From assembly GCA_017516965.1 (NCBI GenBank), contig JAFXAP010000006.1, positions 1 to 49,070 on the forward strand: DNA of 49,070 nucleotides, read 5' to 3'. The position numbers were made by a program, and so were the translations under genes. Source of the DNA: Clostridia bacterium (GTDB lineage: Bacteria > Bacillota > Clostridia > Oscillospirales > Acutalibacteraceae). Positions within the stretch are counted from its first letter, which is position 1; every line of letters begins with the position of its first letter. The notes below the pieces were generated by a model. That model was not told the origin of the DNA. It did not search any database and worked only from the letters and a program-made list of their open reading frames with translations. This document shows, one piece after another, positions 11,623 to 13,885 of this stretch.

Positions 11623-12249
11623 ATGATTTGTTCTTTGTCTGTTGTAGACGTGTATGTTGCTACAATTCCAAAGCAGATAGATTTTACCCCACTTTACCCT
11701 GTTGAGCGCCAGCAGGAAATAGATACTGTAAAAAATGAAAAAACAAAGCGCCAAAAATGGTGCTCTTGGAAGTTGTTGGAATATGCTATGGAGCGCTCAT
11801 TTGGAATAAAGATGAGTGAATGCTCTTTTTTAAAAAGTGATAACGGCAAGTGGGGTAGTGACGCTTTTGAGTTTTCACTGTCGCATTGTGATGGCGCGGT
11901 AGCGGTAGCGGTGGCAAAAAAGAGCATTGGCGTTGACATTGAAAAAAAGCGCTCGTTTAAGTATGAAAAATTATTTGATAAAATACTTAACGAAAATGAA
12001 AAAGCAGTTTATTTAAAAAAGGATGAGTGTGAGCGCCAAGATTTTTTACTTGAAAAATGGACAGCCAAAGAAAGTTTGTTTAAATGCGGTGGCGGCAAAA
12101 CTTTTTTACCTCGTGAACACGACACGCTGGGTGGTAACGTTTTTACAAAAAGATTGACTTTAGACACAGATGATTATGTGCTTTCTGTGGCTACTGATAC
12201 ACCAAAAGACATACGCGTGTATAGTGATTTGGATGTTTTTAAAAAATAA
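11623..12249 (+). CDS. Sfp-type 4'-phosphopantetheinyl transferase
   Basis: This 208-residue cytoplasmic enzyme transfers phosphopantetheine from CoA to a Ser of carrier proteins. Both core motifs are present: GVDIE at 103-107 (Mg2+-binding Asp105 and Glu107) and WTAKES at 146-151 (Lys149, Glu150). A SLSHCDG segment before them matches the usual SxSH element. It stands alone with its own promoter, so its carrier-protein partner (peptide, polyketide or fatty-acid synthase) is not seen here. The ribosome site is GGTGGT. The gene ends directly against the hairpin array. Confidence 0.92.
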   Translation: MICSLSVVDVYVATIPKQIDFTPLYPVERQQEIDTVKNEKTKRQKWCSWKLLEYAMERSFGIKMSECSFLKSDNGKWGSDAFEFSLSHCDGAVAVAVAKKSIGVDIEKKRSFKYEKLFDKILNENEKAVYLKKDECERQDFLLEKWTAKESLFKCGGGKTFLPREHDTLGGNVFTKRLTLDTDDYVLSVATDTPKDIRVYSDLDVFKK

Positions 12250-12635
12250 AAAAGACAGTCAATAGAGGCACCCTCCGTAAGGAAGGTGCCTCAGTTATAT
12301 TCGCCAAAGGCGAGTTATATTGCTTCGCAGTTATATTATACTACGCATAGTTATATTGCCCTTCGGGCAGTTTTAAGGGCGGATATAATATCACGAAAAC
12401 CGATAGGTTTTCATATCACTCTTTAGAAATATCTCGCCTTTGGCGAGGTATTCTAAAGAATATCACTGTGAGACCTGTCTCACAATATCACTTATTATTC
12501 TTATCTTTGAGATAGGTTAATTTTAAAGTATGTAACCCACTATGACACTTTCTACAGATAAGTGTCAATTTTTATATAAAAAGAAAGTAGGGAGAACACT
12601 TCTTTACGAAGTGTCTCCCTACGACTGTCTTTTTT
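12248..12635. repeat. 388-bp array of short hairpins separated by AGTTATATT and ATATCAC spacers
   Basis: The array is framed by a perfect 13-bp inverted repeat (AAAAAAGACAGTC 12248-12260; complement 12623-12635, ending in six Ts). Left arm: hairpins at 12265-12292, 12302-12312 (CGCCAAAGGCG), 12322-12328 (GCTTCGC), an 11-nt weak unit, and 12358-12368 (GCCCTTCGGGC). Exact AGTTATATT lies between them at 12293, 12313, 12329 and 12349. Right arm: exact ATATCAC at 12388, 12413, 12460 and 12485 alternates with stems at 12395-12412, 12420-12459 and 12467-12484. Further stems are at 12544-12566 and 12587-12622. GTTATATT and AATATCAC are complementary at 7 of 8 bases, and the 12302 hairpin is the reverse complement of the tip of the 12420 hairpin, so the whole is a large imperfect palindrome. 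No reading frame is present. Confidence 0.85.
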
Positions 12636-12636
12636 A

Positions 12637-13515
12637 TTATAGTTTTGAGAGTAGTTGATTTATGTTGTGGTCAGAATATTCGATTTCACCGGAATAAAGT
12701 CGGGCGATTTCGAGAAGTTCTTGCATGGTATTTGAGGTGTTAATAGACTTTATAACTTTGTAGATAAGCACCGCAAACAAAACGCGTTCTTTTAGCTTGT
12801 CGTCATATTGGCAATCGGTGAAATGCCTGAAAATAAGATATACAAGTAGTTGCTCATAGGCGGTGTCAAGCGAAGTATCAGGCGCATTGGATTCGATGCC
12901 GTTTTTTATTCTTAGCAGGTAGTTGTCCCAAGCGGTATCTAATTTTTCAAGACCTTGGAAAACCGTATACCAGTCTACACCTGAAGGTAGTTTAGCATCA
13001 ATGAGGTTTAGCATATTGTTTATGCGCTCATCAATGGGTTGAGTTCGATCTTGTAAAATATTAAAGAGTTTTTCTCTGAAATTTATGAGGGGTATTTGTT
13101 TTATGTTATTTGGTAAGTTAAGTTTAGTTTTTTCTTTGTTTGTCAGTATGATTTGTGCCGCTGCTTCGCAGGTAAGACCCAGACCGATCTCGGTAAAATC
13201 CTCATAAAAATTGCGAAAACGTGGGTGGTCGCTACAAATTTGACATAGCATATCTTCACCAAGGTTTGTAATTATGTCGCAGAGTCCGTTATTGTTTAAA
13301 AAAGGGCAACGCTCGTTTGCCGCTAATTTAAAGTGTGGCGCATCGATAAGGCTTATATTAGATTTTAGCCTTGAGGCGAACTCACCCTCTAGATTATTGT
13401 ATTTTTTTAAGGTTGTGTCATCGATATCAATCTCCCAACCGATGCAACAGGAATGGTGGCAACGGTCGGAAATGCATTTGAATTTATTATAATAATCGGG
13501 TGTTATTGTTAGCAT
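12637..13515 (-). CDS. FliB-family protein (flagellin lysine-N-methylase-like), Cys-rich
   Basis: The start is MLTITPDYYNKF, because AAAGGA precedes that ATG; the longer frame is unsupported. The 292-residue protein has the family's N-terminal cysteine cluster (CISDRCHHSCCIGWEIDIDD, Cys14, 19, 23, 24) and a second set (CPFLNNNGLCDI, MLCQICSDHPR, LGLTCEAAAQ). Together these resemble a metal/Fe-S centre. FliB methylates flagellin lysines in enterobacteria, but relatives are widespread in Clostridia with no flagellin gene nearby, as here, so the substrate is uncertain. It ends against the hairpin array. Confidence 0.8.
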   Translation of the reverse strand: MLTITPDYYNKFKCISDRCHHSCCIGWEIDIDDTTLKKYNNLEGEFASRLKSNISLIDAPHFKLAANERCPFLNNNGLCDIITNLGEDMLCQICSDHPRFRNFYEDFTEIGLGLTCEAAAQIILTNKEKTKLNLPNNIKQIPLINFREKLFNILQDRTQPIDERINNMLNLIDAKLPSGVDWYTVFQGLEKLDTAWDNYLLRIKNGIESNAPDTSLDTAYEQLLVYLIFRHFTDCQYDDKLKERVLFAVLIYKVIKSINTSNTMQELLEIARLYSGEIEYSDHNINQLLSKL

Positions 13516-13644
13516 AAAAATGTCCTTTGTGGTGTTTTTTATGAATATAACATAAATTACACTAACAGTCAACTTGCACCTAATTTGTTGTTTATAAATT
13601 ATAATGAAAAATATTTTAAATTTGTGTTGACTTAATTGACAAGT

Positions 13645-13725: not shown

Positions 13726-13799
13726 GGCAGGGGTAGAAGGACTCGAACCCTCACAAACGGTTTTGGAGACCGGTGTGCTACCATTGACACCATACCCCT
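13725..13799 (-). tRNA. tRNA-Trp (anticodon CCA), 3' CCA encoded
   Basis: The minus strand folds as a cloverleaf of 75 nt including CCA. The acceptor AGGGGTA pairs with TACCCCT, the anticodon loop is CTCCAAA inside the CCGGT/ACCGT stem, and the T-loop is GGTTCGAGTCC. The anticodon CCA reads UGG (Trp). Confidence 0.95.
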
Positions 13800-13808
13800 A
13801 TAAATAAA

Positions 13809-13885
13809 TGGTGGACCAACAGGGACTCGAACCCCGGACCAACCGGTTATGAGCCGGTTGCTCTAACCAACTGAGCTATTGGTCC
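13809..13885 (-). tRNA. tRNA with anticodon CAT (Met elongator or Ile2), 3' CCA encoded
   Basis: A 77-nt cloverleaf including CCA: acceptor GGACCAA with TTGGTCC, D-arm AGCTCAGTTGGTTAGAGC, anticodon loop CTCATAA on the stem ACCGG/CCGGT, and T-arm GGGGTTCGAGTCCC. CAU may be elongator Met or Ile2 (lysidine-modified). The sequence resembles Gram-positive Ile2 tRNAs starting GGACC, but I cannot decide. It is cotranscribed 9 bp upstream of tRNA-Trp. Confidence 0.93.

Follow-up and report, generated by a model that had tools for sequence, protein, structure and literature searches.

Among the closest described systems, integron gene cassettes lie as an array behind an integrase, carrying varied cargo with conserved hairpin ends and no recombinase of their own; REPINs and BIMEs are mirrored palindromic units found between genes; and group IIC introns use terminators as their target and insert behind the stem. 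The locus analyzed here lies in a 49,070-nucleotide stretch of a Clostridia bacterium genome (contig JAFXAP010000006.1), which we refer to as the window, and it resembles each of these in part. Like integron cassettes, it belongs to a set with varied cargo between conserved hairpin ends and no recognised recombinase of its own, but its copies sit singly in terminator loops and not in an array behind an integrase. With REPINs and BIMEs it shares mirrored palindromic units in intergenic positions, whereas it has four spacers per arm and a long-range stem, and a Y1 transposase is unmatched in its own genome. As with group IIC introns, terminators are the target; here, however, the insertion is inside the loop, and a reverse transcriptase is unmatched in several carrier genomes. 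In the portions of the literature returned by our searches, no precedent was found for insertion into a terminator loop with both arms kept.

A further relative is the Gut-1 RNA, which, in the part of the 2010 report available to us, is listed as a certain noncoding RNA, not cis-regulatory and from human gut metagenomes only (PMC2864571); our literature search found no other paper on it. We favor the reading, at a probability of about 0.6, that the unit is a non-autonomous mobilizable element of ~360 bp located in the loop of a host intrinsic terminator and carrying a Gut-1-type structured module.

Layout of the unit and its relation to Gut-1

An earlier reading made from the letters alone (the sequence-only reading) had described an array of mini-hairpins at 12248..12635, separated by two fixed spacers and arranged as one large palindrome. 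The array proved real, and the full unit is slightly larger, spanning 12245-12638 (394 bp) and edged by a perfect 16-bp inverted repeat, AATAAAAAAGACAGTC and its complement, which contains an A-tract and a T-tract (Table 1). The array is indeed mirrored, but this outermost repeat is not one of its arms and is attributed below to the terminator of the host gene pair. Inspection confirmed four exact AGTTATATT spacers on the left (starts 12293, 12313, 12329, and 12349) and four exact ATATCAC spacers on the right (starts 12388, 12413, 12460, and 12485), with hairpins between them, and the near reverse complementarity of the two spacer sets was borne out; that the left CGCCAAAGGCG is the complement of a right-stem tip is also true, though nearly automatic because the unit is a palindrome. 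Within the outer repeat, a 4-nt loop remnant is followed by the left end hairpin (LH), the left array, the centre, the right array, an AT-rich linker, a 21-mer with its hairpin, and the right end hairpin (RH).

Table 1. Features of the unit and of the adjoining genes (positions in the window)
Feature	Position	Strand	Basis
Upstream host gene, 4′-phosphopantetheinyl transferase superfamily	11623..12249	+	PF01648, 43.4 bits; stop codon overlaps terminator A-tract
Predicted host terminator, 5′ arm (A-tract and GACAGTC), between two convergent genes	12245..12260	+	Perfect complement of 12623-12638; relatives have plain terminators at the corresponding sites of other copies
Likely terminator-loop remnant, left of insert	12261..12264	+	Sequence; a few bases at the same place in other copies (by eye)
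Left end hairpin (LH/H0), tip TCC-GTAA-GGA	12265..12292	+	Sequence; stem pairs with two-sided changes in alignment A1
Left hairpin array, 4 AGTTATATT spacers and 4 hairpins	12293..12368	+	Gut-1-like, 12292-12361, 43.0 bits
Array centre	12369..12389	+	GGGCGGATATAAT (12377-12389) pairs long-range with first spacer and hairpin; A1 columns 35-45 with 135-145; fold
Right hairpin array, 4 ATATCAC spacers and 3 hairpins	12388..12491	-	Weak Gut-1 match, opposite strand, 12383-12493, 29.8 bits
Putative MobV-type origin of transfer	12532..12567	-	21-mer 12532-12552 with hairpin; ATAGTGGGTTAC on - strand; same 21-mer (≤3 mismatches) near 6 MobV frames
Right end hairpin (RH), inverted relative of LH	12587..12622	+	CTTCGTAAAGAAG on - strand; sequence and comparison of copies
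Predicted host terminator, 3′ arm with T-tract	12623..12638	+	Sequence; complementarity to 12245-12260
Convergent host gene	12637..13572	-	Without Pfam family at E 0.001

The hairpin between right spacers 2 and 3 (12420-12459) is expanded and encloses a second CGCC-type hairpin; the same type of expansion occurs in loci L011, L012, L037, and L177, and another own-genome copy (L002) has the short form. Two tRNA genes (RF00005) lie nearby on the minus strand, at 13728-13885.

Judged by its sequence, the array is a two-armed relative of Rfam Gut-1 (RF01706), and the earlier statement that it fits no known type was to this extent wrong. At the curated Rfam cut-offs the window returned only two tRNAs, and the relation surfaced only with an E-value threshold: the left arm scored 43.0 bits and the right arm, on the other strand, 29.8 bits, both below the cut-off of 50, while the left arm matched the full length of the model (1-77; E of 3.2e-7 in a 481-base search), its three hairpins and fixed spacers being in register with the consensus. 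Both have three hairpins, mostly of the CUUCG type, with a fixed spacer between them (GUGAAAU in Gut-1). They differ in that Rfam models one arm only, whereas the full module has two arms, an inverted right half and a long-range stem, and in that the window copy, scoring 43 against 50, has AGTTATATT as its spacer. Among related array loci, 12/20 passed the cut-off over the left arm and 17/20 matched at an E value of ≤0.001; at the cut-offs, eight related loci gave T-boxes and tRNAs, elsewhere in the loci. By eye, three spacer types (AGTTATATT, GTGAAAT, and TGATAT) share a common layout.

Across the order, Gut-1 matches were found in 64 of 147 genomes (52 over the cut-off), with a maximum of 29 scored candidates in one genome; 1 of 14 control genomes (E. 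coli) gave a match, and none exceeded the cut-off. In the 20 loci returned by this search, 14 arrays start 31 to 43 nt behind a tRNA (12) or tmRNA (2) gene, and of 25 Gut-1 hits over the cut-off, 18 of the 23 inspected by eye start directly after a hairpin with a T-run. The hairpin at the tRNA-linked loci seems to be part of the element, since the same hairpin sequence recurs behind different tRNA genes. One such locus (L232, 1501-2380) has four tandem Gut-1 hits behind a single tRNA-Trp gene, with at least two spacer types (GTGAAAT and TGATAT) and a GAGTTCGAATTCATACGCAAAA-like tail that is also present in L229, L230, and L233.

Copies across genomes and their placement in terminator loops

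A search for the pattern in the own and related genomes, as the sequence-only reading had proposed, revealed dispersed copies, with matches in 25/40 genomes, own included. The own genome gave five matches, query included; its further copies lie on contigs 15 and 8, with fragments on contig 14. The 21-mer GTAACCCACTATGACACTTTC (≤3 mismatches) was present in 35/70 genomes of the genus, and a reversed-pattern control produced 6 hits over the same 70. The copies are numerous, patchy, and located at unrelated genes. Association of the array with this element is not strict, since arrays lacking LH and RH were also found, in other families following tRNA or tmRNA genes and in this genus following terminators. 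Arrays in L003 (G000:C8) and L018 (G001:C28) have another tail, GTTAGGAGAACCTAAAACCC, in place of the 21-mer and RH, and in L018 this tail runs into an apparent tyrosine-recombinase reading frame (by eye).

At the junction of the convergent genes 11623-12249 and 12637-13572, the outer arms in the window resemble an intrinsic terminator that works in both directions. We compared the flanks of other copies, using looser element finders because those requiring strict end hairpins missed most copies; one looser finder gave 61 candidates with many chance pairs and was left out of the counts. Starting from the ends only, the 21-mer with RH was present in 43 copies, 38 of which had LH within 1.5 kb. 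The flanking arms matched over at least 8 bases in 28/38 two-ended copies and over at least 10 bases in 23/38, against 314/1406 (22%) and 54/1406 (3.8%), respectively, when left and right flanks were taken from different copies; where several LH candidates existed, the best was chosen, giving a slight bias toward real pairs, and some of the 28 matches are mainly A/T-tract. In the other 10 two-ended copies the longest exact match was shorter than 8 bases, and by eye these comprise five imperfect stems and five non-matching flanks (L039, L091, L184, L188, and L014). A script that paired end hairpins and then required complementary flanks returned 25 copies with arms of 9 to 20 bases, every arm string being different, the arms of L002 and L017 being mainly A/T-tract.

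For empty sites, the joined flanks of five copies, and then of five further copies, were searched against 70 genomes. The copy in G004, beside a HIT-like gene (named by eye), has an empty counterpart in G011, which is 94% identical straight through the joined flanks and reads GCACCGA-TTAAA-TCGGTGC, versus GCACCGA-TTAA-[element]-C-TCGGTGC in G004. Plain terminators were also found at this site in G078 and the own genome; in G019, other content occupies this terminator, split over two contigs, and an LH-type hairpin adjoins the right arm. For the remaining four copies of the first search, no junction was crossed among the matches listed from the 70 genomes. A second empty site, for the G076 copy, was again found in G011 (73%), with AAAAGAAGCAC-GAAATC-GTGCTTCTTTT versus AAAAGAAGCAC-AATC-[element]-GTGCTTCTTTT in G076. 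For L173 (copy G076:C53), the left-hand gene is followed in two relatives by a plain terminator whose stem is similar. At genes taken by eye for rny, proS, and a KH-domain gene, copies are present in one or two genomes and mostly plain terminators elsewhere, except that in two or three cases proS is followed by another gene with no terminator in between. The window's own copy had no empty site among the matches listed from the 70 genomes; orthologues of its right-hand gene 12637-13572 in G011, G048, G019, and G024 have ordinary terminators and other neighbours (by eye).

These comparisons indicated that the outer 16-bp inverted repeat is a predicted host intrinsic terminator split at its loop, and that closing stems are host DNA, because a relative has the same terminators without the insert at the sites of two other copies. 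The dispersed copies and the two empty sites likewise support the non-autonomous mobile element that had been offered among the earlier suggestions. Target-site duplications, also suggested then, were looked for at both empty/filled comparisons (G011 versus G004 and G011 versus G076), and none was seen. An account without insertion, in which all 394 bp form a single structured RNA or large hairpin with a co-varying closing stem, would fit the closing stems in that these are perfect in many copies and differ between copies as a co-varying helix would; yet it is contradicted by the two uninterrupted terminators with the same stems in G011 and by gene-bearing copies of 1.2 to 2.4 kb that lie within perfect stems of the same kind, and we consider it highly improbable.

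Putative origin of transfer, cargo genes, and candidate enzymes

On its other strand, the 21-mer presents a hairpin followed by ATAGTGGGTTAC / TAGTGGGTTA, which we take to resemble the MobV origin of transfer of pMV158. Of 78 distinct 21-mers, 43 are followed by RH and 35 are not, the latter including several array copies with RH missed or beyond the contig end. A MobV frame lies 19 to 68 nt away (to the frame edge) at 6/35 sites without RH, and within 1.5 kb of 0/43 21-mers followed by RH. These six frames are similar to the MobV of L201, the one frame scanned, which matched Mob_Pre (PF01076) with 134.5 bits. Over the 70 genomes of the genus, Mob_Pre matches were found in 18 and none in 52, although 35 carry the 21-mer; the own genome had one match (69 bits). 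The 21-mer region is likely an origin of transfer, since the motif, within the same genome group, is shared with the six MobV relaxase genes. The locus resembles integrative mobilizable elements with a MobV/Pre-type origin in having the same 21-mer, and differs from them in that the motif is within an element without a recognised relaxase or integrase.

In L201 (1138-6438), a MobV relaxase followed by two large serine recombinases lies beside the shared 21-mer, a plausible helper element. In L218, L219, L220, and L224 (G048, G071, G058, and G011), the 21-mer follows a near-identical hairpin, ATCGAGTGTTCATAACCAACTTGAATGTTGG..CACTCGAT, which by eye lies just behind a tRNA-like end in 3 of the 4.

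In six copies, genes replace the array or lie beside it (L022/L059, L186, L060, L063, L221, and the G019 copy). Their products include a TetR-type protein (PF14278) in L060, YpsA (PF06908) with a 1306-aa BspA-type repeat protein (PF13306) in L221, HEPN_AbiU2 (PF18734) in the G019 copy, and a DUF6883 protein in L186 with a look-alike in L022 (by eye). A single base distinguishes the two arms of L221, and the G019 copy has its arms on separate contigs. No recombinase, relaxase, or transposase was recognised in the six copies, from which eight proteins were scanned (three without a Pfam family) and at which contigs often break.

These data bear on the possibility that the unit is an ordinary MITE of a DDE transposase which met terminators by chance. 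Its shortness, inverted palindromic ends, and many copies would suit a MITE; however, no transposase was recognised in the six longer copies, target-site duplication was not seen at the two empty sites, and random insertion is not expected to preserve the arms. We therefore regard this origin as improbable.

Searches for partner enzymes, which in this genus covered G000 (the own genome) and G068 only, left the Y1 transposase (PF01797) unmatched in the incomplete genomes G000, G027, G035, and G093, the last three of which have 23, 24, and 28 Gut-1 matches, respectively. A REPIN-like population moved by a Y1 (IS200/605-type) transposase would agree with the mirrored spacer-plus-hairpin units, their location mostly at gene 3′ ends, and the many Gut-1 matches per genome; weakened by these unmatched genomes, it has in our view a very small chance of being correct. 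The reverse transcriptase (PF00078) was unmatched in carriers G027, G035, G088, and G093 (incomplete genomes), and the own genome gave two matches. Neither enzyme was retained as a universal partner, both being unmatched in several high-copy genomes. The serine recombinases found in the MobV elements are no more than candidates for the integrating enzyme.

Folding of the array and the proposed mode of insertion

Folding and compensatory change, both of which had been named earlier as checks, were examined on the window copy and on an alignment of arrays. Compared with shuffles, the whole element strand folded with a z of -14.0, and the array alone with a z of -8.5 as RNA and -8.2 as DNA; the opposite strand of the array as RNA was almost as well folded (z of -7.6). 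Alignment A1, consisting of 35 of the 43 arrays found (eight, mostly with odd or uncertain ends, were omitted, and some ends were hand-trimmed), showed two-sided changes in 26/46 RNAalifold consensus pairs. The supported long-range stem joins the first left spacer with the centre, A1 pair 38/142 changing on both sides in 10/35 arrays. This strong compensatory change supports the highly structured RNA, or a structured single strand, that the sequence-only reading had listed among its options. Pairing of left with right spacers, as a ladder of four-way junctions, was rejected, the variable bases showing no co-variation (Spearman 0.09, P = 0.59, 35 arrays).

G-T wobbles outnumbered A-C mismatches by 24 to 10 cells, a weak count made on 35 hand-picked of the 46 pairs and omitting 11, some of which are almost always G-T. 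The excess leans to the plus strand; among these related sequences it does not separate RNA from single-stranded DNA. Of the 43 arrays, 36 follow a gene that shares their direction, 4 follow a divergent gene, and 3 have no call. A downstream gene was called for 30 arrays and is convergent in 21, which makes part of the orientation bias automatic.

The array could instead be a functional host RNA of the Gut-1 type, made from the transcript of the upstream gene or from its own promoter, its surroundings being incidental. Such an RNA would account for the compensatory change, the G-T excess, and the many arrays behind same-direction genes, and Gut-1 was rated a certain RNA by its discoverers in the part of their report that we could consult (PMC2864571). 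Against it, the numerous copies are distributed patchily and at unrelated genes; part of the orientation bias is automatic; the opposite strand is nearly as well folded; 18 of the 23 Gut-1 hits inspected start right after a terminator-like hairpin with a T-run, where transcription should stop; and an RNA has no need of inverted spacers. We hold a host RNA to be possible but rather unlikely. Since the unit has a mirrored layout, a patchy distribution, and a link to insertion sites, we consider the array most likely a structure-recognised mobility module, acting as single-stranded DNA or as an RNA copy, rather than a host regulatory RNA.

The unit as a whole is most likely a small hitch-hiking mobile element. 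In the insertion that we propose, an element of ~360 bp would enter a terminator loop with both arms kept; its ends are two similar palindromic hairpins in inverted orientation, and its inside is a mirrored Gut-1-type array, genes, or both. The 21-mer would be an origin of transfer used in trans by MobV relaxases of other integrated elements in the group, the transferred or exposed single strand may then fold, and a trans-acting recombinase would join the folded strand at the loop of the terminator palindrome. With the terminator stem still able to form, an insertion of this arm-keeping kind is expected to be of little cost to the host.

More broadly, we give about even odds to the proposal that terminator loops are a dedicated integration niche for gene cassettes that lack a recombinase and bear an origin of transfer, with the Gut-1 "RNA" being half (the left) of a mirrored module which is recognised by its structure and is carried both by these elements and by those linked to tRNA/tmRNA genes. 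Gut-1 is now located in genomes, where it makes up one of the two arms of a mirrored unit and is connected with mobile DNA, and its role becomes directly testable in any cultured carrier. Loop insertion would let mobile DNA, including defence-like cargo such as the HEPN AbiU2 protein, settle between genes cheaply.
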